This document shows positions 4,429 through 20,696 of a DNA stretch of 29,693 bases, piece after piece (the first letter of the stretch is position 1; each line of letters opens with the position of its first letter). The notes beneath the pieces were generated by a model, which did no database searches, was not told the DNA's origin, and worked only from the letters and a program-made list of their open reading frames with translations. The stretch spans positions 1-29,693 of the IMG/VR virus record IMGVR_UViG_3300001750_000018. One strand, 5' to 3'. The DNA comes from a virus. Position numbers and translations under genes: made by a program.

Positions 4429-4566
4429 AATAAAAAATTAATTATGGAAAATATTAAAAAATAAAGGAGAAAAAAGATCATAAAAAAGTGTTATTGATTA
4501 TATTAGAGCAGATGGTTATTTGATGACCAAATGAAATTTATTTATTATTTGAAAAAGGAGAACAAA

Positions 4567-5733
4567 ATGGCTAAAAAGACGAAAGTAGATGTGAAAGATT
4601 TGAAAACATTGAAAAAGGTTGGTAAAGAACTTCAGGTGATCGTGAACCCGACTGATGACAATGATGATAAAATCGTTATTACAAAAGGGAATTTGAAGCA
4701 GGTGAAAAAGAAAATTATTCAAGTTGCTGCCTGCCTGACTACCGATGATGAAATCTCAGAAGAATTGGCCGCAGTTTTGACAAAGTTTAAAGTGGAGGTC
4801 TTAGATCCCCCAAATGACAACGACGATGACAACGACGATGACAACGACGATGACAACGACGATGACAATGACGATGACAACGACGATGACAACGACGATG
4901 ACAACGACGATAACGATGATGATGCTGGTGGTGATGATGAATTGAGCCTTGCCGATATCATGAAAATGAAAACGGCCGATTTGAAAGCCCTTAATAAAGA
5001 AAAAAAATTAAAAATCAAAACATCCGGCAAAAAGGTTGGGGAATTACGAATTGAAATTGCTGTCGCCCTGGGTCTGTCCGAATCAGATGATAACGATGAT
5101 AATGATAACGATGATAATGATAACGATGACGATGACAACGATGACAACGATAATGACGACGACGATGATAATGATGATGATGACGATGATGATGACGACG
5201 ACGACGATGATGATGACAACGATAATGACAACGATGATGATGATGACAACGACGATGACAACGACGATGACAACGACGATAACGATGATGAAGCCCTGTC
5301 CATTGAAGAAAAGGTAAAAGGGACCAAAAAGCTGGTTGAATTACAGGAACTCGTTGCCGGTAATGATGAATTCAAAAAGATTCAGAAAAAAGCTAAAAAG
5401 TTTAAAGGACTTGATGGTGCCCGTGATCTGAAAAAACTTATGCTGAAAAAACTTGGTATTGAACCGGCCGGTAAAGAAAAGAAAGGCAAAAAGCCGGGGG
5501 TGATCGCAACTATTGTTTCCCTGATCAGTTCCAAACCTATGAGCAAAAAGACCCTGTTGAAAAAACTGGGCAAAGCCTTTCCGGATCGTGATATTGATAA
5601 AATGGAAAAGACCTTGAACATTCAGGTTCCCAACCGGATTCGTAAGGAAAAGAACGCCTCTCTTACCGAAAACGACAAAGGGAAATGGGTTTTCAAAAAA
5701 ACCCAAGACGGGGTTGCCAAGACTTCAAAATAG
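4567..5733 (+). CDS. Acidic low-complexity protein with Asp/Asn tracts and SAP/HeH-like segment
   Basis: This 388-residue protein starts at ATG 4567 behind AAAAAGGAGAACAAA; a longer start at 4531 has no ribosome site. The order is a basic N-terminal region of about 80 residues, a first Asp/Asn tract, a short helix-extended-helix or SAP-like segment (LSLADIMKMKTADLKALNKE), a second much longer Asp/Asn tract, and a basic C-terminal half. That half includes a possible winged-helix segment (VSLISSKPMSKKTLLKKLGK). SAP/HeH segments bind DNA in known proteins, and acidic tracts often regulate such binding. The gp32-like protein at 19188 has the same combination of tracts plus HeH-like segment. Codons in the tracts (GAC, AAC) are less AT-rich than the neighbours. 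Function is unknown; an abundant DNA-associated protein is a guess. Confidence 0.75.
   Translation: MAKKTKVDVKDLKTLKKVGKELQVIVNPTDDNDDKIVITKGNLKQVKKKIIQVAACLTTDDEISEELAAVLTKFKVEVLDPPNDNDDDNDDDNDDDNDDDNDDDNDDDNDDDNDDNDDDAGGDDELSLADIMKMKTADLKALNKEKKLKIKTSGKKVGELRIEIAVALGLSESDDNDDNDNDDNDNDDDDNDDNDNDDDDDNDDDDDDDDDDDDDDDNDNDNDDDDDNDDDNDDDNDDNDDEALSIEEKVKGTKKLVELQELVAGNDEFKKIQKKAKKFKGLDGARDLKKLMLKKLGIEPAGKEKKGKKPGVIATIVSLISSKPMSKKTLLKKLGKAFPDRDIDKMEKTLNIQVPNRIRKEKNASLTENDKGKWVFKKTQDGVAKTSK
4816..4923 (+). repeat. In-frame tandem repeat encoding Asp/Asn tract 1
   Basis: A 12-base unit, GACAACGACGAT with few substitutions, is repeated about nine times without breaking the frame and encodes Asp-Asn-Asp-Asp units. 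The near-identity of the copies suggests recent expansion by slippage or unequal recombination. Confidence 0.9.
5086..5289 (+). repeat. In-frame degenerate repeat encoding Asp/Asn tract 2
   Basis: About 68 codons are only GAT, GAC, AAT or AAC. The unit is less regular than in the first tract, mixing runs of Asp with Asn every two to four residues; the central part is a pure Asp run of more than ten residues. Confidence 0.9.
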
Positions 5734-5820: not shown

Positions 5821-6486
5821 ATGAAATATTTGCTTTCTTTATCAGGTGGACTTGATTCAACTACTTTAGCTGCTTATTTATTGAATAAAGGAAATGAAGT
5901 TGAAGCCATTTCATTTTATTATGGTTCTAAACATAATGATTTGGAAAATACAGCGGCAAAAGTGATAGCTGCATATTATAAAATTAATTTGAAATTAATT
6001 GATATTTCACAGGCAATGACTGGTATTGAATCAGCTTTGCTAAATTTAGGGGGACCCCTCCCTGAAGGACATTATCAGGCTGAGTCAATGAAACAAACAG
6101 TTGTTCCTGCCAGAAATATGATTTTTTCAAGTATTTTGGCCGGGATTGCAGAAACCAGAAAAATTGATAAAATAGCCCTTGGAGTCCATGCGGGAGATCA
6201 TCATATTTATCCAGATTGTAGACCAGAATTTATTTGGCATATGGGGCGGGCTATAGATTTTGGTACCGATAATACTGTACAAGGAATATACGCTCCATTT
6301 CTTTATTTGTCAAAAAGTAAAATTGTTGAAATTGGTATGAAATTGGGGGTTCCTTATCAGTCTACACGGACTTGCTATTCTTCAAATGATTTGGCTTGTG
6401 GAAAGTGTGGCAGCTGTGTGGAAAGAAAAGAAGCATTTCAAATGAATGGGCACAAAGATCCACTTCAATATCAGGAGGAAAAATGA
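5821..6486 (+). CDS. queC: 7-cyano-7-deazaguanine (preQ0) synthase QueC
   Basis: QueC makes preQ0 from 7-carboxy-7-deazaguanine, ammonia and ATP. The PP-loop is SGGLDS at 8-13. VPARNM (95-100) and GVHAGDHHIYPDCRPEF (121-137) are family motifs. The C-terminal zinc site has Cys185, Cys193, Cys196 and Cys199 (ACGKCGSC). Length is standard at 221 residues, so this is not the larger amidotransferase-QueC fusion known from phages that make archaeosine-type DNA bases. AAGGA lies six bases before the ATG. The TGA overlaps the folE start as ATGA. Confidence 0.95.
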   Translation: MKYLLSLSGGLDSTTLAAYLLNKGNEVEAISFYYGSKHNDLENTAAKVIAAYYKINLKLIDISQAMTGIESALLNLGGPLPEGHYQAESMKQTVVPARNMIFSSILAGIAETRKIDKIALGVHAGDHHIYPDCRPEFIWHMGRAIDFGTDNTVQGIYAPFLYLSKSKIVEIGMKLGVPYQSTRTCYSSNDLACGKCGSCVERKEAFQMNGHKDPLQYQEEK

Positions 6487-7397
6487 TTGAATATTCGTTA
6501 GAGGATTTTCAAGATGCTGTTGAGTATCTTTTTGATGCTATAAAAAATTCAAAAACTAATTTAAAAGCAATTTATGGAATTCCACGTGGCGGTATTCCAT
6601 TGGCGGTTGCTTTGGGGGTTTCTCTTGATTTGCCGTTAATTGAATTAAAGAATTTTACCAAATACAAAAGATCAGAAATTTTAATTGTTGATGATTTGAT
6701 TGATTCAGGTAAAACCATTAAAGCATTTGATGGATATCCAGTGGCGGTTCTTGGTATCAAAGACCATGCGGCTAAATTTTTTCCAGATCTTCAGTTTGCC
6801 GCTTGTTATTTTCCAAATGAATGGATTCATTTTTGGTGGGAACCAAAAGCGGAGAATGATATTGAATCAAGTGTTGTCCGATTGATTGAATATATAGGGG
6901 ATGATATAACCCGGGAAGGATTGGTGGAAACTCCAAAAAGGGTCATTAAATCGTTTGATAGGATTTATGGTGGCTATGAAATGGATCCGGAAAAAATAAT
7001 GAAAACTTTTTCTGAAGATGATTGTGATGAAATGGTGGTATTAAAGGACATCACAATGCATTCAACTTGTGAGCATCATATGTTGCCATTTAACGGGGTT
7101 GCTCATATTGCTTATATACCAAATGGCAGGGTAATTGGAGTATCAAAATTGGCCAGGCTTTTGGAGATTTATTCTCGCCGGCTTCAGATTCAAGAAAGAA
7201 TTGGTGAACAGGTCACAAATGCACTGATGAAATATTTGAAACCAAAAGGGGCAGCTTGTGTAATTGAAGCCCGGCATTCATGCATGACAGCCAGGGGGGT
7301 TGAACAGCAAACTTCAACAATGGTGACTTCATCAATTAAAGGGGTTTTTAAAGAAAAACAAAAAGTCAGGGCTGAATTTTTAGGATTTATTAAATGA
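6483..7397 (+). CDS. folE: Phosphoribosyltransferase - GTP cyclohydrolase I fusion
   Basis: This 304-residue protein joins two enzymes. Residues 1 to about 122 look like a type I purine phosphoribosyltransferase: IPRGG at 33-37, the PRPP loop ILIVDDLIDSGKT at 66-78 and WIHFWWE at 114-120, which recalls the WI...W(D/E) hood of xanthine-guanine (GPT) enzymes. Residues from about 128 form GTP cyclohydrolase I, which opens GTP to dihydroneopterin triphosphate, the first step to preQ0. Zinc ligands are Cys196, His199 (STCEHH) and Cys267 (SCMTARGV). The start ATG 6483 overlaps the queC stop, with AGGAGG just upstream. No frameshift separates the domains, so the fusion appears real. A plausible job is to feed salvaged guanine toward GTP, but a preQ0- or other base-directed activity is possible. 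Confidence 0.9.
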   Translation: MIEYSLEDFQDAVEYLFDAIKNSKTNLKAIYGIPRGGIPLAVALGVSLDLPLIELKNFTKYKRSEILIVDDLIDSGKTIKAFDGYPVAVLGIKDHAAKFFPDLQFAACYFPNEWIHFWWEPKAENDIESSVVRLIEYIGDDITREGLVETPKRVIKSFDRIYGGYEMDPEKIMKTFSEDDCDEMVVLKDITMHSTCEHHMLPFNGVAHIAYIPNGRVIGVSKLARLLEIYSRRLQIQERIGEQVTNALMKYLKPKGAACVIEARHSCMTARGVEQQTSTMVTSSIKGVFKEKQKVRAEFLGFIK

Positions 7398-7552
7398 TTA
7401 TTTATTTAGCCGGCAATATTCCTGATCGGGTAAGGGAAGAAAAGGAATTGATTAAACATGGAGTGATTAAACGCCGGCTATATTCTTATTATTTTCATAA
7501 AATTGATATTACAATGCGGCAGGTTTTTTTGTTTTGGAAATCATTATGTTAA
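7394..7552 (+). CDS. Mini-ORF 1, DpdA N-terminus-like
   Basis: A 52-residue frame starting in the folE stop (ATGA). It opens with MIIYLAGN and then has KRRLYSYYFHKI, which lines up with the DpdA opening MHLFFYGN followed by NKRLHSFASHSV. In the deazaguanine transglycosylase these correspond to the first strand, a helix and the second strand. Nothing after residue 36 resembles DpdA. The gene overlaps the next mini-ORF by seven bases, so it lies in a coupled chain folE - mini 1 - mini 2. Confidence 0.6.
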   Translation: MIIYLAGNIPDRVREEKELIKHGVIKRRLYSYYFHKIDITMRQVFLFWKSLC

Positions 7553-7707
7553 TCTATATGGCAGGTAGTTCAGGTTTTAAAAAAAGGGAAACTGGTTGGT
7601 TACTTGTTTTGCGGAAAAGGCTTTTATCATTTTTTGAAATAAGATATGATGAAAGAGACCAACATTATCAAAAACGGGCATTTAATCTTTTAAAAAATAG
7701 GAGATGA
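7546..7707 (+). CDS. Mini-ORF 2, DpdA N-terminus-like
   Basis: This 53-residue frame opens MLIYMAGSSGFKKRE and continues to RKRLLSFFEI. It is the closest of the six to DpdA (GNTGFHSKERE and NKRLHSF). The C-terminal 20 residues are basic and unrelated to the rest of DpdA. The last codons contain TAGGAGATGAATT, the ribosome site of the transporter gene that follows, so the two are likely translated together. Confidence 0.6.
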   Translation: MLIYMAGSSGFKKRETGWLLVLRKRLLSFFEIRYDERDQHYQKRAFNLLKNRR

Positions 7708-7710
7708 ATT

Positions 7711-8268
7711 ATGACAAAAAATAAGTATTTTTGGCCAATTATGTATCTTGTATCAATTCTTTTAGGGAATCTTTTTGTACTCTGGTTTGGTATAGTTAAA
7801 GTTGCTGGGTTGGCTTTTCCTGCAGGAGTAATTTTTGTGGGGTTAACTTTTTCTTTTCGGGATTTTGTTCAAAGGAAATGGGGAGATAAAGCTTGCTGGC
7901 TTTGGATGATACTTGCTACTTTTATTACTTTTTTTTTAAATCAAAAAGTGGCTTTAGCATCGGTGGCAGCTTTTGGAGTTTCTGAATTTGTGGATTGGTA
8001 CATTTTTAAATATTTGAAAGTATCTTTGAAAAAACGAATAATTTTTTCAAATATTCTTTCATGTCCGTTGGATTCAATGATTTTTGTTTCCATTGCTTTT
8101 GGATGGTATTGGCCAGCTATTTGGGGGCAGGCTTTGATTAAATATGTATCAGGACTTTTTGTCTTACCATTTATTAAAGAAAAACGAATTCATTGGGATT
8201 TTACATTATCCACATTAGAGCCAGATGCCACAGGATGGTTGAAAGATTTAGAAGAGTTAATAGACTAA
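7711..8268 (+). CDS. VUT/YhhQ-family queuosine-precursor transporter-like protein
   Basis: This 185-residue membrane protein has four to five hydrophobic segments. The first pair (PIMYLVSILLGNLFVLWFG and FPAGVIFVGLTFSF) is followed by FRDFVQRKWG, the loop signature of the VUT/YhhQ family. In E. coli, YhhQ takes up preQ0 and preQ1, and related short members occur in phages. Placed among queC, folE and dpdA, the likely role is import of a 7-deazaguanine precursor from the host surroundings into the infected cell. A different small-molecule substrate cannot be excluded. Confidence 0.75.
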   Translation: MTKNKYFWPIMYLVSILLGNLFVLWFGIVKVAGLAFPAGVIFVGLTFSFRDFVQRKWGDKACWLWMILATFITFFLNQKVALASVAAFGVSEFVDWYIFKYLKVSLKKRIIFSNILSCPLDSMIFVSIAFGWYWPAIWGQALIKYVSGLFVLPFIKEKRIHWDFTLSTLEPDATGWLKDLEELID

Positions 8269-8271
8269 AAG

Positions 8272-8376
8272 ATGAAAATTTTCTTTGCTGGAAATGGTGG
8301 TTTAAGCCCTATTACCAGGGTTAATACTAATCGTTTATTCAGGGGTAGAATGCTTTCATATTTTGAAATATTGTGA
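8272..8376 (+). CDS. Mini-ORF 3, DpdA N-terminus-like (shortest)
   Basis: Only 34 residues: it opens MKIFFAGNGGL and ends GRMLSYFEIL, so it contains just the two conserved blocks and stops right after the second. That makes it the minimal form of the family. It starts three bases after the transporter stop; no strong ribosome site is visible. I cannot tell whether it is expressed. Confidence 0.45.
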   Translation: MKIFFAGNGGLSPITRVNTNRLFRGRMLSYFEIL

Positions 8377-8442
8377 TTCACCCCTGTGATAAACAATGGC
8401 GAAGATTAAAACGGTTTGGTATCTTTAAAAAGGAGAAATTAA

Positions 8443-8667
8443 ATGACACTTAAACAAAGTTGGGATCAACTCGGAAAAGAAAAGTCAAATTTTGATAAAA
8501 AAGAACTTTGGAAAGGAAATTGGGAATATACCGGAGTTCAGCCCCATTCTCAATCTGGTGAATTTAAACAAATTCTTGACAAAATGGATGAGATATTAAA
8601 AACGGTTAAAGCTGGTTTTAATCAAAATGGATATACTAAATCAAATGGAATATGGGTGAAGTTATGA
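8443..8667 (+). CDS. Hypothetical protein
   Basis: This 74-residue protein starts at ATG 8443 behind a good AAAAAGGAG. It is hydrophilic, with a helical middle (GEFKQILDKMDEILKTVKAG). I recognise no domain. The TGA overlaps the next start as ATGA, which ties it to the small gene and then to dpdA in one coupled set. Confidence 0.6.
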   Translation: MTLKQSWDQLGKEKSNFDKKELWKGNWEYTGVQPHSQSGEFKQILDKMDEILKTVKAGFNQNGYTKSNGIWVKL

Positions 8668-8870
8668 AAATTATTGAAATAAAAAAGGTGTTTATTCCAT
8701 TTGCTATCCATATAGAAACAGAAGATGAGATGTATAAATTTAAAGAAATATTGATATATGCCAGAGATTCTTTACAAAAAGAAGCATGTGATGAGGCTTT
8801 AAATTTGGTGGCACTCCTTGAAAATGGTATTGCCAAATTTGAATTGAGTAGTATACAGAGGATTGAATAA
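8664..8870 (+). CDS. Hypothetical protein upstream of dpdA
   Basis: This 68-residue protein begins with beta-like IIEIKKVFIPFAIHIET followed by two helices (DEMYKFKEILIYARDSLQ and KEACDEALNLVALLENGI). No family comes to mind. ATG 8664 overlaps the previous stop; ATG 8652 is an alternative. Its TAA shares one base with the dpdA ATG, so the two are translationally coupled. Confidence 0.55.
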   Translation: MKIIEIKKVFIPFAIHIETEDEMYKFKEILIYARDSLQKEACDEALNLVALLENGIAKFELSSIQRIE

Positions 8871-10945
8871 TGCACTTATTTTTTTATGGCAACACTGGGT
8901 TTCATTCAAAGGAAAGGGAAAGGGAGATTTGCTCTTTATTTAATAAAAGATTACATTCATTTGCCAGTCATTCTGTATTGAAGCATAAAGATATTACCGA
9001 ATGTTTTTGTATTAAACAAGAAAATGGGTATGAGTTTCCGATTAAAAAAGTTGATCAGTTAAAATGGTTATATAATAAAAAATGGAATATAGGTGAGTAT
9101 ATGAAAACTAAAAATAAACAAAATAAGGTAAATTTGTTTTTGGATTCTGGGGCTTATTCAGCTTGGTCACAAAATGCCGTAATTAATATTCACGAATATA
9201 TTGCATTTATTAAAAGTAATATTGAATATATTGATGTTTACGCAAATTTGGATGCCATTGGTGATCCAGATGAAACTTTGAAAAATCAACGGATAATGGA
9301 AAAAGCCGGATTGAGCCCATTACCTTGTTATCATTTTGGGGAACCGATTAAATATTTAAAAAAGTATTTGAAAGGATACAAGTATGTTGCCCTTGGTGGG
9401 ATGGTTCCAATATCAACAAAAGATTTGCGCCCCTGGCTTGATGATATCTTTTTAAATCATATTTGTGATAAAGATGGAATACCTCGGGTTAAGATTCATG
9501 GGTTTGGTATGACTTCCTTATCTCTGATGCTTCGGTATCCTTGGTATTGTATGACTGAAGAAGATCACGAAGTACTTACAAAATCAGGTTGGAAGTTTAA
9601 AAATGATTTAGAAGTTGGAGAAGATATTTTATGTTATTCACAAGGAAAAGCTCAGTGGGAGTCTATTCTTGAAATTCCAGTTTTTCCAGTAAAAAATATT
9701 GATTTGGTTGCAATGGATAATAGAAATTTTTCTGCAAGAGTTACTCACAATCATAATTGGGTAACAACTAATCAAAATAATAAAAAAGAAAATTGGAAAT
9801 TTAGAACAACTAATTCAATGAAAATTGGAGATTGTATTCCAAGAGTTGGTAAATATTCTTTTCCGGTTGAAAAAAAATACACAAATGAACAGGTTGAATT
9901 ACTTGCTTGGTTTTGGACAGATGGAAGTATTAAAAAAAGATCAAAATATAAAAAAGATTCTGTTATGTTATATCAATCTGATTCGGTTAATTTTGGGAAG
10001 GTGGAAAGGATTCAAAGAGCACTTGATGAATCACATGAAGCTCATTGTAAAGGTGAAAATTGGTTTGAATTATATGGGGAGATTCGTGATTTTTTATTGG
10101 AGATAGCTCCTAATAAAAAACTTCCTATCCATTTTATTTGGGACTTGACTAGAGATCAATTACAAAGATTTATTGATTGTTCAGTTTTAGCAGATGGGTC
10201 TATTACTAAATTAATTCGTAAAAAGGGTTTTGCAATAGCAGTATCAAGAAAAGTAAAAAAACATAATTTAGAAATAATTAGAATTGCTTGTTTACTTCTT
10301 GAAATTCCAACTTCAATTTATTCTACTAAGAAAGGGTTGAAAGGTTTAAATAGTTCTTCAGTTGATTGGATTTATTTTAAAGAAGTAAAACAAAAAGAAG
10401 TAAAGTATACTGGTAATTTATGGTGTGTCAGGGTACCTTCAAAGGCTTTTTTTACGAGATGTAATGATAAAATATATGTTACTGGTAATTCGGTTGATTC
10501 AACTTCATGGGTAATGACCGGTCGTATGGGTGGAATCTTGATCCCCAGAAGAAGTAATGGTCAATATGATTATCACAAAAACCCATTAAAAATAACGGTT
10601 AGTAGTAAATCACCAGCAGCAAAAAAGAAAGAAGCCCATTTCAAAACTTTCAGCCCAGTTCAACAGAAAATTTTTAAAAAGTATTATAAAGCAAAGGGCT
10701 TTAAAATGGGCAAATCATCATTCAGGAATGAAAACCCAGATACATATGTTTTAAAGAAAAATGAAAAATGGAATAAAAAGAAAGAAAGTATTGTTGAAAC
10801 AATTATTAAGCCGGGGCTTTGTAATGATTACAAAATGCGGGATGAATTGAACATTATTTATTTCTTGGATTTGGAAAAGAAAATGAAACCTTGGCCCTGG
10901 CCGTTTATATTGAAAAGCAGAATGAAAGGTTTTTTTGAAAAATGA
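8870..10945 (+). CDS. dpdA: DpdA-like DNA 7-deazaguanine transglycosylase precursor, intein-containing
   Basis: DpdA swaps guanine in DNA for a 7-deazaguanine base by the tRNA-guanine transglycosylase mechanism. The 691-residue precursor holds a 314-residue intein (227-540); spliced, the enzyme would be 377 residues, similar to phage DpdA. Visible family elements are LFLDSGAYSAW with Asp92, YANLDAIGDPDETL, VALGGM (base-binding Gly-Gly), the KIHGFGMTS strand, and YPWY joined to SVDSTSW across the intein. The Asp of SVDS (precursor residue 543, mature 229) corresponds to the nucleophile region of the transglycosylase fold. The N-terminal 35 residues are the template for six separate mini-ORFs nearby. 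The folE, queD, queE and queC genes in the window supply the base. Activity requires splicing. Confidence 0.88.
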   Translation: MHLFFYGNTGFHSKEREREICSLFNKRLHSFASHSVLKHKDITECFCIKQENGYEFPIKKVDQLKWLYNKKWNIGEYMKTKNKQNKVNLFLDSGAYSAWSQNAVINIHEYIAFIKSNIEYIDVYANLDAIGDPDETLKNQRIMEKAGLSPLPCYHFGEPIKYLKKYLKGYKYVALGGMVPISTKDLRPWLDDIFLNHICDKDGIPRVKIHGFGMTSLSLMLRYPWYCMTEEDHEVLTKSGWKFKNDLEVGEDILCYSQGKAQWESILEIPVFPVKNIDLVAMDNRNFSARVTHNHNWVTTNQNNKKENWKFRTTNSMKIGDCIPRVGKYSFPVEKKYTNEQVELLAWFWTDGSIKKRSKYKKDSVMLYQSDSVNFGKVERIQRALDESHEAHCKGENWFELYGEIRDFLLEIAPNKKLPIHFIWDLTRDQLQRFIDCSVLADGSITKLIRKKGFAIAVSRKVKKHNLEIIRIACLLLEIPTSIYSTKKGLKGLNSSSVDWIYFKEVKQKEVKYTGNLWCVRVPSKAFFTRCNDKIYVTGNSVDSTSWVMTGRMGGILIPRRSNGQYDYHKNPLKITVSSKSPAAKKKEAHFKTFSPVQQKIFKKYYKAKGFKMGKSSFRNENPDTYVLKKNEKWNKKKESIVETIIKPGLCNDYKMRDELNIIYFLDLEKKMKPWPWPFILKSRMKGFFEK
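9548..10489 (+). mobile_element. Intein with LAGLIDADG homing endonuclease, inside dpdA
   Basis: The element spans Cys227 to Asn540 of the precursor. Block A begins at CMTEEDHEVLTKSGW, block B is VTHNHNW (Thr and His in the expected TxxH pattern), and the end is WCVRVPSKAFFTRC followed by IYVTGN and extein Ser. Two LAGLIDADG-type helices are visible, ELLAWFWTDGS (about 9892-9924) and FIDCSVLADGS (about 10169-10201), each keeping its acidic residue. The residue before the terminal Asn is Gly rather than the usual His, a variation found in some splicing-competent inteins. The insertion point is exactly at the conserved SVDSTSW motif, as expected for a homing element in an essential site. Confidence 0.9.
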
Positions 10946-11283
10946 TAAAAAGAAACTTTGAAATCTGGAAACAAATAACAGGACTTGATTACTATTTTAT
11001 TTCAAATCTGGGCAGAGTTAAGTCGTGTGAAATTGCTAATTTTGGTAAAAGAGTTCCTGCTTTTTTGAACGAAAGATTTTTGCCAATTGAAAAGGATGAA
11101 AAGGGTCTTTCATTTGTTGTTATTAATGATAGAGAAGAATATCATGTATTATACATACATCATTTGGTTTTGCTTCATTTTAAGCCACCAATGCCTGCAT
11201 TGTTATATCAATATAAAGTTCATTTTAAAGATGGGGATAAAACCAATAATTGGAGTAGTAATCTTTCGTGGGTAAAGAAATGA
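10942..11283 (+). CDS. NUMOD4/HNH-type homing endonuclease-like protein, short form
   Basis: This 113-residue protein begins IKRNFEIWKQITGLDYYFIS, then NLGRVKS, the NUMOD4 pattern, and ends with a VHFKDGDKTNNW...NLSWV segment that matches the HNH core. The first HNH His is not evident, since KVHFKDGD replaces the usual (C/V)NHxDGD spacing. It stops right after the core and lacks the C-terminal helix-turn-helix present in the two related genes at 11757 and 17939. It is either a truncated or a minimal form. ATGA overlap with the dpdA stop and with mini-ORF 4 places it in a coupled chain. Confidence 0.7.
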   Translation: MIKRNFEIWKQITGLDYYFISNLGRVKSCEIANFGKRVPAFLNERFLPIEKDEKGLSFVVINDREEYHVLYIHHLVLLHFKPPMPALLYQYKVHFKDGDKTNNWSSNLSWVKK

Positions 11284-11459
11284 AAATTTATCTGGCAAGT
11301 ACCGCCCCAGGGACTGAAGCCACTTCAGGAAAAAGGATGTGTGATATAAAAGAACGCCTTTTAAGCTATTGGAGTATCAAGATTAATGATTTATATTGCG
11401 GCAATGTTTTCAAAGAAATACGGCGCATTAATCATAGATTATTAGGGGTAAAGAAATGA
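11280..11459 (+). CDS. Mini-ORF 4, DpdA N-terminus-like
   Basis: This 59-residue frame opens MKIYLASTAPG and has KERLLSYWSIKI at the second conserved block. The helix between the blocks is about four residues longer than in DpdA. A basic tail (RRINHRLLGVKK) follows. It begins in the stop of the HNH gene and ends in the start of mini-ORF 5, with GGGGTAAAGAA before the next ATG. Confidence 0.6.
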   Translation: MKIYLASTAPGTEATSGKRMCDIKERLLSYWSIKINDLYCGNVFKEIRRINHRLLGVKK

Positions 11460-11611
11460 AAATTATATTAGCAGGAAGTGTGGCTGGAAAAACAAAAGAA
11501 AGGGAGTTCTTGCTTCGTAAAAATCATAGATTACTTTCGTTTTATGAAATTAATGCAAAGTTGTTTAATGCTTTGCTTTCTTTTAAAATAATAAAAAAGG
11601 CCAAACGATGA
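11456..11611 (+). CDS. Mini-ORF 5, DpdA N-terminus-like
   Basis: This 51-residue frame opens MKIILAGSVAGKTKERE and has RKNHRLLSFYEI at the second block, matching the DpdA layout with the same Lys-Glu-Arg-Glu charge pattern. The remainder is a hydrophobic then basic helix. It is coupled by ATGA to mini-ORFs 4 and 6. Confidence 0.6.
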   Translation: MKIILAGSVAGKTKEREFLLRKNHRLLSFYEINAKLFNALLSFKIIKKAKR

Positions 11612-11760
11612 GGATTTATTTAGCTACCTGGCTTTTGGAACCAGGGCAAGGAAAATCACTTACTAAGCAAAAGGCAAAAGAAAGATTGATAAGTTATTTT
11701 CATACTCTTACTAAAGCAGATCAGGTCAAAAAATATGTGCGGAAGGGTCTTAATAAATGA
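11608..11760 (+). CDS. Mini-ORF 6, DpdA N-terminus-like
   Basis: This 50-residue frame opens MRIYLATW and has KERLISYFHTL at the second block. It is the most divergent copy, with no AG after the first strand. The tail is basic (KKYVRKGLNK). ATGA overlaps join it to mini-ORF 5 and to the frameshifted HNH gene. Confidence 0.55.
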   Translation: MRIYLATWLLEPGQGKSLTKQKAKERLISYFHTLTKADQVKKYVRKGLNK

Positions 11761-12267
11761 AAAGAAATACCGAAAGATGGAAAGATATTGAGGGTTTTTT
11801 TGTATTATCAAATTTCATGTTTTGGTAGAGTTAGATTGTTTAAAGGGAAGATTACAAGAATATTAAAACACGCTAAAAATTTAGGAGGTAGAAAGTATGT
11901 TGGACTTTATCAAGATAAAACCTTTTATCATAAAGATATCCATTTATTGGTTTTAATTCATTTTGGTCCACCAAAACCATCACCAATTCATGAATGTAAT
12001 CACAAAGATGGTAATTGTGGTAATAATTGGTGGAATAATCTTGAGTGGATGACTCATCAAGAAAATATGATACATGCTGCAGAAAATAATTTAATGCCAT
12101 ATGGGATAAGTCATCCTGGATGTAAATTATCTGAATATCAAGTTAACAGGATAAGAAAATTGTATAAAAGTGGAAAGTATAGTCAAGAAAAATTAGCAAA
12201 AAGATTTGAGGTTGCTCAAACAACTATTTCACGAATAATTAGAAAAATAAGATGGAAACACCTTTAA
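11757..12267 (+). pseudogene. NUMOD4/HNH homing endonuclease, frameshifted at a T7 run
   Basis: The ATG at 11757 opens MKRNTERWKDIEGF, the same N-terminus as the related genes at 10942 and 17939. That frame then leaves the family and stops 23 codons in. From the T run at 11795-11801 the +1-related frame continues with YYQISCFGRVR, then HECNHKDGNCGNNWWNNLEW (HNH core) and a helix-turn-helix ending WKHL. With six instead of seven T the two halves join exactly as GFLYYQISCFGRV, aligned with GFSNYEISNFGRV of the 17939 protein. It is a one-base frameshift, a slippery-run switch, or a homopolymer sequencing error. A TTG at 11788 could start the long frame alone. Confidence 0.75.
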
Positions 12268-16991: not shown

Positions 16992-17945
16992 ATGCAGGAT
17001 ATAAAAATTAAATATCGACCTAAATCATTTAAGAATTTTTTGGGGAATGATGAAACGGTTGAGTCATTGCGAGAGTTATTTTTTGCAAAAGAAAGCCCCC
17101 ATGCAATTTTATTAACTGGCCCCAGGGGGTGCGGTAAAACTACTTTGGGTCGAATTATTAAAAAGGAGTTGGGTTGTTCAGATTTTGATTATAGGGAACT
17201 GGATACAGCCGTTTTTAGAGGGATAGGAACCGTCAGAGATCTGCGGGAAAGCTTATCCTACCTCCCAAGGAAAGGGGATGTAAAGGTTTATTTAATTGAT
17301 GAGGCCCATATGCTTGGAAAGGGGGGTTCATCCGAAAAAAATGAAGCCCAAAATGCTTTGTTGAAATCTTTAGAGGAGCCCCCTGATCATGTTTATTGGA
17401 TTTTATGTACTACGAATCCTGAAATGTTGATAAAAACAATAAGATCAAGGTGCGTTGAATTTCAAGTGGCCCCTTTGGATCAGGCAGAAACTACCAAATT
17501 AGTTAAAAGAGTAATGAAAGGGGAAAATAAAGAAGTTGGTCAAAAGGTAATAAAAAAGATTCATATGGTTACCCAAGGGTTTCCCAGGGATACTTTAACA
17601 TTGTTATCAAAGATTATTAATTTATCAACCAATAAAAAAATGCTGAAAATGATTAGCACTGAAAATTTGGAAGAAAATGCTCAAATTATTGATCTTTGCC
17701 GTATCCTGATGAAAGGTAATTGCTGGGATAAAGTAAGGGATATTTTAAAAAGATTAAAAACGGAAGACCCTGAAACGGTACGGCGAGCTATTATGGGGTA
17801 TGCAAATTCGGTTTTACTCAATGGCAATACTGATGGTGCTTTGATTTTGGGGTGGTTTGTATATAAATCAACTTATGATTCAGGGTGGCCAATTATTACT
17901 CAGTTTTGTTATAATATTGATCAAGGGATTGAGCCTCCATGTTGA
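16992..17945 (+). CDS. Clamp-loader AAA+ ATPase (DnaX/RFC-like)
   Basis: This 317-residue protein loads the sliding clamp. Walker A is GPRGCGKT at 43-50, Walker B VYLIDEAH at 99-106, sensor 1 CTTNPE (139-144) and the SRC arginine-finger motif RSRC at 151-154. The opening KYRPKSFKNFLGNDE is the standard clamp-loader N-terminus. No zinc module of bacterial DnaX is seen, and the collar domain follows from about 220. AAAAGGAG precedes the ATG by five bases. The 61-base gap before it is AT-rich, with no clear promoter. An HNH gene overlaps the 3' end by seven bases. Confidence 0.9.
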   Translation: MQDIKIKYRPKSFKNFLGNDETVESLRELFFAKESPHAILLTGPRGCGKTTLGRIIKKELGCSDFDYRELDTAVFRGIGTVRDLRESLSYLPRKGDVKVYLIDEAHMLGKGGSSEKNEAQNALLKSLEEPPDHVYWILCTTNPEMLIKTIRSRCVEFQVAPLDQAETTKLVKRVMKGENKEVGQKVIKKIHMVTQGFPRDTLTLLSKIINLSTNKKMLKMISTENLEENAQIIDLCRILMKGNCWDKVRDILKRLKTEDPETVRRAIMGYANSVLLNGNTDGALILGWFVYKSTYDSGWPIITQFCYNIDQGIEPPC

Positions 17946-18451
17946 TTAAACGAAATAAAGAAATATGGAAAACAATTAAAGGTTTTTCAAATTATGAAAT
18001 TTCTAATTTTGGTAGGGTAAAATCATTAAATAGAAAAGGGATAATGAAGATTCAATTTGCTAAGAATTATCCTGTTATTGGTTTATGGAAGAATTCAAAA
18101 AGAATTCAAATTGATATTCATTTGTTAGTAATATATCATTTTGGTAAACCAAAACCATCACCTAAGCATGAATGCAATCATATTGATGGAGATAAAAGGA
18201 ATAACTGGAATATTAATCTTGAATGGATGACTCCAAAGGAAAATTCACAACACGCTCATGATAATGGTCTTTGTAATCCAGTTAGAGGAATTAATCACCC
18301 ACGTTCAAAACTTATTGATAGTCAAGTTAAGGAAATTAGAAAAATTTATAAAACTGGAAAATCATCTTTTATTAAACTTGGTAAAAAGTATGGGGTGGAT
18401 GCATCAACAATTAAATTTATAATTAAAGGACAGACATGGAGTCATATTTGA
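17939..18451 (+). CDS. NUMOD4/HNH homing endonuclease
   Basis: This 170-residue protein is the intact member of the three-gene set. It has NUMOD4 (NKEIWKTIKGFSNYEISNFG, then RVKS), an HNH core with HECNHIDGDKRNNW and NLEWMT, and a C-terminal helix-turn-helix (SQVKEIRKIYKTG, then LGKKYGVDASTIKFIIKG). Such free-standing enzymes nick or cut DNA at a target near their gene and spread by copying. It overlaps the clamp-loader end by seven bases, so it inserted without disturbing that reading frame. Confidence 0.85.
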   Translation: MLIKRNKEIWKTIKGFSNYEISNFGRVKSLNRKGIMKIQFAKNYPVIGLWKNSKRIQIDIHLLVIYHFGKPKPSPKHECNHIDGDKRNNWNINLEWMTPKENSQHAHDNGLCNPVRGINHPRSKLIDSQVKEIRKIYKTGKSSFIKLGKKYGVDASTIKFIIKGQTWSHI

Positions 18452-19027: not shown

Positions 19028-19191
19028 CAGTTCAAATAACTTGGTGGATGATAGGAATTTTGTTTTTTTCTTATTTTATTATTCCATCTTATGTTCGTTT
19101 TTTAGGTAAAAGTTTTGGCAAAGGTATTGTTGATGGGGTTGATGAAATTAACCAATTATGTAATGCAAAATCAAAAGGAGAATTAAGATGA
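19024..19191 (+). CDS. Small single-pass membrane protein
   Basis: This 55-residue frame starts in the stop of the previous gene (ATGA) and ends in the start of the gp32-like gene (ATGA). Residues 7 to 27 (WWMIGILFFSYFIIPSYV) form one hydrophobic segment near the N-terminus, and the tail is polar (GVDEINQLCNAK). No function can be named. Its final codons carry AAAAGGAGAATTAAG, the ribosome site for the next gene. Confidence 0.6.
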   Translation: MTVQITWWMIGILFFSYFIIPSYVRFLGKSFGKGIVDGVDEINQLCNAKSKGELR

Positions 19192-20696
19192 GTAAAAAAA
19201 GAAAAGGGCGTGGCTCAAATATGGGCAAAGGAGTTAGTAAATCAAGACAAATGAGAAAGACCGGGAAAAATTGGTTGAATATACCTGCAAAATGGCAATT
19301 GTTTAAAGAGGAAATTGATCATAAATTAAAAATTGATATTCTTCCTTATGTTGTGAAAGACCCGGATAATCACCCGGAAGGGGATGCCATGTCTGACGAT
19401 ATTTGGTACAGGTTCCCGTATAAAATTCATCGAAATGTTGGTGCCACCCGGGCGTCTGCCTTATGCCCCACTACAATTGGCAAGCCATGTCCAATTTGTG
19501 AAAAAATGCAAGAAATTTATGATGACCCTGATTTAACTTCAAAAAGGGCAAGTCAAAAAGCTGCCAAGTTTCGTCCGTCAAAAAGATCGCTTTATGGAAT
19601 CAAGATTTTATCAGGTGATAAAAAATTGAAAGGCAAAAAGTATATTTGGGATATTTCAGATGCTAATTTTTATGCCAAAGTCGAAGAAGCCATTGAAGCC
19701 CTTGAAGACGAAGACCTGAACAATTATGCCTGCTTACAGGGCGGATATACTTTGAAAGTGAAATTCAAAGAAGAAAAATTTGATAAAACCAAGTTTCCGG
19801 TTGCTGCCAGGGTCGATTTTATTCCAAGAAAAGATTATAAAGAATCATTGTTGGACAAGATGCCTTGTCTTGATGATATCATTTTGCCGGGTATTAAATC
19901 TTATGATGAAATGGTTGAACTTTTGGAAGGGGCTGAAGAAACTGGAAAGAAAGGCGGCAAGAAAGGTGGCAAGAAAGGTGGCAAGAAAGGCGGCAAGAAA
20001 GGTGGCAAGAAAAATAACAGGTCAAAATTGACTTGGTCTGACTTATCAGAAATGGACGAAACAGAATTGGTTGAAGTTTTGGAGGATGCCGGGGAAGACA
20101 TCGAAGATTACAATTATGATGATGAATTTGAACTCAGAATGGTAGTTGCTGATTTTTTCGATATTGAGCACCCAGATAACGATGATGATAACGACAACGA
20201 TGATAATGATAATGATAATGACGACGACGATGATAATGATGATGATGACGATAATGATGACAACGATGATGATGACAACGATAATGATGATGACAACGAT
20301 AATGATGATGACAACGATAATGATGACGACAATGACAACGACGATGACAACGATGATGATGATGATGACGACAACGACGATGACAACGATGATGATGATG
20401 ATGACGACAACGACGATGATGAAACCCCAAAAGAACGGAAAGCCAGGGAAAAGAAAGAAAAAGCTGCCAAAAAGAAAGTAGATAAAGCGAAGGCAGATAA
20501 AAAAGTTGCCAAAAAGAAAGGTGGAAAGGGAGGAAAAAAGAAAACTTCCGGATCATCCACCAAAAAAGCCATGAGTTGCCCATTTGCTTATCAATTTGGT
20601 GAAGAGTGGGGGGATCATGACGAATGTAATAAAAAGGATTGCAAGAAATATCAAAAATGTTTTGATGCCTATGATAAATTGCAGGATGCTGTGTGA
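19188..20696 (+). CDS. gp32-like single-stranded DNA-binding protein with Lys/Gly, HeH and Asp/Asn extensions
   Basis: This 502-residue protein begins with a basic N-terminus and an OB-fold-like core. The zinc site His81, Cys93, Cys101 and Cys104 has spacing close to the His64, Cys77, Cys87 and Cys90 site of T4 gp32. After about residue 250 come six GGKK-type repeats, a helix-extended-helix segment (LTWSDLSEMDETELVEVLED), an acidic tract of about 80 Asp/Asn residues, a Lys/Ala/Gly-rich stretch, and a Cys-rich end with SCPFAYQFG, ECNKKDC and KCF. T4 gp32 has a short acidic tail that recruits partners; this is a greatly expanded version plus a second possible zinc module. The protein probably coats single-stranded DNA at forks. 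Confidence 0.85.
   Translation: MSKKRKGRGSNMGKGVSKSRQMRKTGKNWLNIPAKWQLFKEEIDHKLKIDILPYVVKDPDNHPEGDAMSDDIWYRFPYKIHRNVGATRASALCPTTIGKPCPICEKMQEIYDDPDLTSKRASQKAAKFRPSKRSLYGIKILSGDKKLKGKKYIWDISDANFYAKVEEAIEALEDEDLNNYACLQGGYTLKVKFKEEKFDKTKFPVAARVDFIPRKDYKESLLDKMPCLDDIILPGIKSYDEMVELLEGAEETGKKGGKKGGKKGGKKGGKKGGKKNNRSKLTWSDLSEMDETELVEVLEDAGEDIEDYNYDDEFELRMVVADFFDIEHPDNDDDNDNDDNDNDNDDDDDNDDDDDNDDNDDDDNDNDDDNDNDDDNDNDDDNDNDDDNDDDDDDDNDDDNDDDDDDDNDDDETPKERKAREKKEKAAKKKVDKAKADKKVAKKKGGKGGKKKTSGSSTKKAMSCPFAYQFGEEWGDHDECNKKDCKKYQKCFDAYDKLQDAV
19944..20012 (+). repeat. In-frame 12-base repeats encoding Gly-Gly-Lys-Lys
   Basis: GGCGGCAAGAAA and close variants repeat five to six times and encode a basic linker (GGKKGGKKGGKK) inside the gp32-like gene, just before the helix-extended-helix segment. 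Confidence 0.9.
20175..20420 (+). repeat. In-frame Asp/Asn-encoding repeat in the gp32-like gene
   Basis: About 82 codons are only GAT, GAC, AAC or AAT, in local repeats such as GATAATGATGATGACAAC. The tract has the same vocabulary as the repeats in the 4567-5733 gene, giving potential for recombination between the two. Confidence 0.9.

Follow-up and report, generated by a model that had tools for sequence, protein, structure and literature searches.

The question raised by this locus is what is encoded by six very small open reading frames (mini-ORFs) that stand on both sides of dpdA, a putative DNA-guanine transglycosylase gene (8870..10945, plus strand). The locus lies in IMG/VR virus record IMGVR_UViG_3300001750_000018, and the window, meaning the whole stretch of DNA that was analysed, is a viral contig fragment of 29.7 kb (29,693 nucleotides). 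According to the main text of a study of phage DpdA (PMC6884629), this enzyme inserts preQ0 into DNA and thereby shields phage DNA from restriction. The mini-ORF products are predicted to be detached copies of the first quarter of the DpdA barrel. The reading that we favour, at roughly even odds (a probability of about 0.5), is that these free quarter-barrels complete or re-tune a split DpdA, presumably by docking in trans, and that they are diversified by phase variation and exchange.

All six frames were found on the plus strand at the starts given in a preliminary description of this DNA. A hidden Markov model (HMM) of the family was built from 98 such units, here called modules, none of them from the window or from L008, its closest relative. 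When it was compared with the 834 six-frame segments of the window, only the six mini-ORFs matched at E 1.4e-16 to 5.1e-6, and the best match beyond them had an E value of 0.015. Upstream of dpdA are mini-ORF 1 (7394..7552, 52 residues, class D with the motif AGNxPDRxxEE, E 1.7e-12), mini-ORF 2 (7546..7707, 53 residues from the ATG at 7546, assigned to class P by linkage, E 1.8e-8) and mini-ORF 3 (8272..8376, 34 residues, E 5.1e-6), which stops right behind the second-strand motif. Downstream are mini-ORF 4 (11280..11459, 59 residues, class S, ASTAPGxE, E 1.1e-14), mini-ORF 5 (11456..11611, 51 residues, class AGSxAGKTKERE, E 6.6e-13) and mini-ORF 6 (11608..11760, 50 residues, class T, ATWLLExxQGxxLTK, E 1.4e-16). 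The opening M-x-I-(Y/F/I)-(L/M/F)-A that had been described for them is present in all six, and each has a second block (R/K)xR(L/M)xS(Y/F) or a close variant of it. Start-stop coupling had been claimed for five of the six starts; the coupling is real but the count was too low, as all six either overlap the preceding stop or lie within 3 nucleotides of it. ATGA start-stop overlaps occur at 7394, 11280, 11456 and 11608, the start of mini-ORF 2 lies 4 nucleotides ahead of the stop of mini-ORF 1, and that of mini-ORF 3 lies 3 nucleotides past the stop of a transporter gene. None of the six matched a Pfam or PHROGs family significantly. Nor was there a significant match for classes T and P in PHROGs, for class T in Pfam or for two modules in NCBIfam; the best value in all these searches was 0.0062, below cut-off.

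An alignment of the DpdA core, searched against 2.9 million viral contigs, gave 80 loci. The first module profile produced 257 matches, of which 254 were on the dpdA strand; after further scans, 245 module starts were counted in 84 of 101 contig-unique loci, and all module matches at E < 0.1 (284/284) were on the dpdA strand. The T modules alone, when searched against all viral contigs, identified 36 loci, 12 of them on contigs not previously found, and dpdA was on the same strand in 36/36 (in L103 by reading). The P modules alone identified 27 loci, with dpdA in 27/27 records. The microproteins, of 35-75 residues, are a family with obligate dpdA linkage, and these two scans bear out the earlier suggestion that a family of microproteins accompanies dpdA. 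Single microproteins compared with 50,697 cultured-phage records (tblastn, limit E 10) gave chance-level matches only, so the family has essentially gone unrecorded in cultured phages. A scan of bacterial and archaeal genomes returned one contig (L148), which carries dpdA and several modules and is binned as a Spirochaetes metagenome-assembled genome. This contig may be a hint to the host or a mis-binned phage, and because of the latter no host is claimed. Its dpdA, at least four modules and its beta clamp, uracil-DNA glycosylase (UDG)-exonuclease and polymerase genes are ordered as in the window. Proteins beginning MKIYLAGP (in L081, and in L080 at 6712-7353) were excluded as look-alikes resembling nucleoside-2-deoxyribosyltransferase.

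The modules fall into recurring classes, T (46 members), P (17), S (17), N (11), D (6), G and smaller ones. The loop between the first strand and first helix (beta1-alpha1) differs by class, as in ATWLLExxQG, ASTAPGxE, AGTPGxxRE and AGNTPDRxxEE, and the loops and tails particular to a class are conserved. Between the window and L008, the module at 11456 is 84% identical and that at 11608 is 78% identical, with differences at the three codon positions of 12/6/30 and 10/4/27, respectively. The ratio of non-synonymous to synonymous change (omega) was 0.11-0.44 where synonymous change was unsaturated. The modules are therefore conserved among relatives and under purifying selection. Chance or decay, which the preliminary description had left as an option, is contradicted by the orthologous classes and the codon-position bias. 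It is very improbable that the modules are functionless remnants of duplicated dpdA genes: some copies are indeed frameshifted, and there are many copies with differing tails, but the same classes recur as orthologues in distant phages, omega is well under 1, no remainder of dpdA follows the modules, the ATGA coupling is retained and the breaks cluster at repeats. A DNA-level repeat element was also considered, and was rejected because conservation tracks codon positions. In L030 (4038-4268), a natural in-frame fusion joins an S-class module to the beginning of a T-class one, the latter broken at a GA repeat.

The relationship of the modules to DpdA was assessed by profile comparison and structure prediction. 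The classic phage DpdA N-terminus reads MRIYLAAMYTS...LESYHYI...VRVFLDSGAFSA, and the module profile aligned to such N-termini with an hhalign probability of 93.9 (P 1.6e-7), module columns 1-41 corresponding to DpdA 1-52; the reversed-profile control gave 0.4%. A natural fusion of module and core (L060) was modelled with AlphaFold2 with a predicted local distance difference test (pLDDT) score of 86 and a predicted template modelling (pTM) score of 0.84. In the model the module part forms strand 2-5, helix 12-21, strand 24-28 and helix 29-47, and the core begins at strand 55-59, the third strand. Foldseek placed other triosephosphate isomerase (TIM) barrels first, none with an E value below 1e-3, and re-ranking with VIA-align brought DpdA and the tRNA-guanine transglycosylases (TGTs) to the top. 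The best VIA-align match was the DNA preQ0 insertase DpdA 7ui4 (Z 17.8, 268 residues, 3.4 Å), with model residues 1-339 aligned from residue 1 and the TGTs ranking after it. The hhalign match and the fusion model together indicate that the module, as predicted from sequence and model, is the opening quarter of the DpdA/TGT barrel (beta1-alpha1-beta2-alpha2); the earlier assignment to the first strand, helix and second strand of the transglycosylase fold agrees with this. The window DpdA itself has a module-like N-terminal segment in frame, from 8870 to about 8980. The likeness that had been noted for this segment stands through the family-wide comparison with other DpdAs and not through the window sequence alone, which is a weak match (family HMM, E 0.3).

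Not every DpdA in these loci carries such a segment. In 15 of 58 module-bearing loci, an in-frame stop lies 7-21 codons upstream of the motif FLDSGA, so that DpdA starts just ahead of strand 3 and the first quarter is not present in cis. At least one intact free module was found in each of these 15 core-only loci (in L015 by reading the translation). An intact P module with a frame of its own stands directly before the core in L042, L047 and L062. In-frame fusions of a P module to DpdA occur in L053 and L060, and the L060 N-terminus matched a free P module at E 1.7e-19. Class D likewise has free members in the window (mini-ORF 1) and L034, and members fused to DpdA in L070 and L078. That two classes occur both free and fused bears out the idea that DpdA absorbs such modules. 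On a tree of the DpdA core, sister cores had different N-terminal states (for example P in L053 and G in L061, or G in L046 and core-only in L057), with 20 changes in total. An ATG no more than 16 codons before FLDSGA was present in 52/58 module-bearing loci versus 7/16 loci without modules. The window dpdA has an internal ATG at 9101..9103 (plus strand), 12 codons upstream of FLDSGA and with AGGTGAG ahead of it, which might be the start of a core-only DpdA.

In the relatives, all of which are metagenome consensus sequences, the modules are rich in simple repeats. A census was made of 74 dereplicated loci, in which modules make up 2.5% of a megabase. Of 28 poly-G tracts of at least 7 bases, 18 were in modules and 10 outside (0.7 expected in modules), and of 46 GA tracts of at least 5 units, 38 were in modules and 8 outside (1.15 expected), these figures coming from 9 and 22 loci, respectively, and treating every locus as independent despite the relatedness of siblings. 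Poly-C tracts of at least 7 bases were located in modules in 7/9 cases and outside in 2, and A tracts of at least 7 bases were not enriched. Arg-Glu was encoded as AGAGAG in 60/121 cases in modules (50%) versus 95/1015 elsewhere (9%; p 7e-25). Broken, that is frameshifted, modules were more frequent with a repeat (30/67) than without one (13/159), and in most of the frameshift cases listed the repeat was located between the two frames. A few modules were miscalled by the automatic sorting into intact and broken, L026 5717 being in fact intact and L015 9142 broken, and the trend was unchanged.

Five sibling loci (L025, L026, L029, L031 and L033) have near-identical DpdA cores and differ in the tract lengths within their modules. 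In the D module the poly-C tract is 8, 7 or 9 bases long, with the frame open only in L026; in the module next to it the poly-G tract is 8, 8 or 9 bases long, with the frame open only in L031. These differences place different modules in frame. The siblings also differ by whole GA units in the module preceding dpdA, and by gain or loss of whole cassettes. This pattern, seen in consensus sequences only, is the hallmark of repeat-slippage contingency loci. For this part of the reading there is a separate alternative, in which the repeats merely reflect the amino-acid composition of the loops (RERE, GGG, PP) and errors of assembly or sequencing account for the broken copies, without phase variation. 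Consensus data, and homopolymers being error-prone on some platforms, would fit it, but it leaves the preference for AGAGAG codons in modules, the enrichment of three repeat types in differing contexts with none for poly-A, and the whole-unit differences between sibling GA tracts to be explained, and we consider it fairly improbable. Programmed ribosomal frameshifting was dropped as a candidate, as the frame difference is 1 or 2 and sibling tract lengths vary; no fixed slippery heptamer was present in the frameshift cases listed. In L010 (10160-10784) four modules follow in a row, and each of them contains or is overlapped by a poly-G run of 7 or 8 bases.

According to the reading that we favour, DpdA would be modular in this phage group, with a catalytic core that can begin at beta3 (FLDSGAFS). 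The first quarter would be supplied either by a module fused in frame ahead of the core or in trans, when one of several microproteins of the same operon docks on the core. In a TIM barrel the beta1-alpha1 loop stands at the catalytic mouth; as these loops are class-specific, exchange of modules would most plausibly alter the choice of guanines or DNA contexts to be modified, or the activity of the enzyme. Slippage at poly-G, poly-C and GA tracts within modules would vary the usable set in many relatives, and cassette gain and loss would vary it as well, so that a phage population might reversibly change, presumably to its benefit, the disguise of its DNA against restriction. Because DpdA protects DNA from restriction, a switchable module set would diversify that protection. 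In the most specific form of this proposal, which is tentative and rather doubtful, any one of several phase-variable microproteins of 50 residues would complete the core transglycosylase in trans, each steering 7-deazaguanine to a different DNA context. If true, one phage lineage would carry a combinatorial, fast-changing DNA disguise.

Several observations weigh against the completion of DpdA by switchable modules. Modelled alone, mini-ORF 6 was not confidently folded (pLDDT 65, no strands), which might be as expected for a piece that needs a partner and is no proof of it. The window's own six modules carry no repeat tracts of the kinds described, and part of the tract-length variation in the relatives could be assembly error, as the data are consensus sequences. 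T, S and N, the commonest classes, were fused to DpdA in no case and may thus have another role. Many DpdAs, including that of the window, have an in-frame N-terminal segment alongside the array, and the classic DpdAs of cultured phages form one supported group on the core tree and have no arrays.

Some of these points suit the main rival, in which the microproteins are regulators or inhibitors that mimic the first quarter and bind DpdA or its dimer partner site, the array tuning the timing or amount of modification. Homology to a DpdA segment and strict dpdA linkage would be expected of any binding, and the classes that are never fused and the phages with both an in-frame N-terminus and an array would sit comfortably with it. 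On the other hand, at least 15 DpdAs lack a first quarter in cis, and in fusions its place is taken by P and D modules. These two observations fit completion better than inhibition, and regulation by mimicry is on balance unlikely.

In another alternative, which is improbable, the modules descend from the DpdA N-terminus and remain near dpdA through origin or co-regulation, while acting as free-standing proteins away from DpdA, for example against host defence or by binding nucleobases or tRNA. This would agree with the conservation of class-specific loops and tails and with the position of some modules thousands of bases from dpdA (L068; L013 3980-4302). Repeat-driven on/off switching, moreover, is characteristic of proteins whose adversary keeps changing. 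Against this, the T and P searches found no module in a dpdA-free record, and no match to any family was obtained.

Completion of DpdA by exchangeable modules would have a close parallel in phase-variable restriction-modification, which includes the Type III mod phasevarions and Type I HsdS proteins with shuffled or switchable target-recognition domains. There, as may be the case here, a DNA-modification enzyme has accessory or specificity parts that lie on slippage-prone repeats and are exchanged among relatives. Here, however, the system is phage-borne, the chemistry would be base exchange and not methylation, the unit is a TIM-barrel quarter of about 50 residues, and a change of specificity is only proposed. 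The (beta/alpha)8 barrel has been viewed as built from smaller (beta/alpha) units, and half- and quarter-barrel fragments have been described (PMC4591997, PMC3741200); those were engineered or were splice variants of one gene, whereas the present ones occur naturally, as separate genes in several copies next to that of the enzyme. The modules correspond to the N-terminal quarter of the phage enzymes in the known DpdA/TGT family (7ui4; the phage DpdAs of 9g, CAjan and others; PMC6884629), and the fold of that family is predicted for the fused form. Known DpdAs have the quarter in cis and no arrays, unlike these loci, with several diverged separate genes and some DpdAs lacking the quarter. DpdA2 of Vibrio phage nt-1 represents another divergent phage DpdA subgroup, a second subfamily; the passages that describe it in PMC6884629 name no small companion proteins, and the terms N-terminal, split and phase are absent from the main text of that paper. 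No description of such modules was found in the literature on phage phase variation, DpdA and quarter-barrels, in a search that covered few subscription journals. Both the enzyme and the repeat mechanism belong to known kinds; arrays of detachable quarter-barrel genes are, to our knowledge, new.

If the proposal is correct, an enzyme with the commonest fold would have been dismantled in nature and its first quarter dealt out as tiny exchangeable genes, and the long-standing proposal that TIM barrels arose by the joining of smaller units could be tested on an example from nature. Phages would also be altering the chemical disguise of their own DNA by repeat-slippage phase variation, a mechanism familiar mainly from surface and restriction genes of bacteria. 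Whatever the mechanism, this widespread family of small proteins (35-75 residues), tied to a known DNA-modification locus and unmatched in Pfam and PHROGs, merits annotation.

The mini-ORFs of the window sit inside a 7-deazaguanine gene cluster. The genes queD (3297), queE (3691) and queC (5821) were named from their sequences; FolE, the queuosine-precursor transporter and DpdA were identified by profile tests. The folE gene (6486..7397, plus strand; preQ0 pathway), whose stop overlaps the start of mini-ORF 1, encodes a phosphoribosyltransferase-like N-terminal part (ILIVDDLIDSGKT) before GTP cyclohydrolase I, an arrangement also present in L002 (1608-2495). The transporter, at 7711..8268 on the plus strand, is of the YhhQ/Vut_1 type and is predicted to carry queuosine precursor (preQ0). 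The window dpdA matched phrog_887 at E 6.7e-51 and NCBIfam NF041059 at E 7.6e-4, the latter below the cut-off of that model. It has the DpdA/TGT active-site motifs DSGAxS and, behind a putative intein, DS, and the Asp columns are invariant in the alignment. The intein was read from the sequence as 314 residues (227-540; 9548..10489, plus strand) between YPWY and SVDSTSW, and its match to LAGLIDADG_3 (E 0.0058) was below cut-off. A homologous insert occupies this site in the DpdA of L103 too, and in L028, L033, L042 and L076 the DpdA frame likewise runs to about 600 residues.

An HNH/NUMOD4 homing-type endonuclease gene (10942..11283, plus strand; NUMOD4 3.5e-8, HNH_3 6.7e-6) separates dpdA from the three downstream mini-ORFs, with ATGA coupling retained on each side. 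It is one of three HNH/NUMOD4-like endonuclease ORFs in the window, the others being at 11788-12267 and 17939-18451. Two further proteins of the window, encoded at 4531-5733 and 19188-20696, contain very long acidic repeats rich in Asp and Asn, and the second of them also has GKKGGKKGG repeats.

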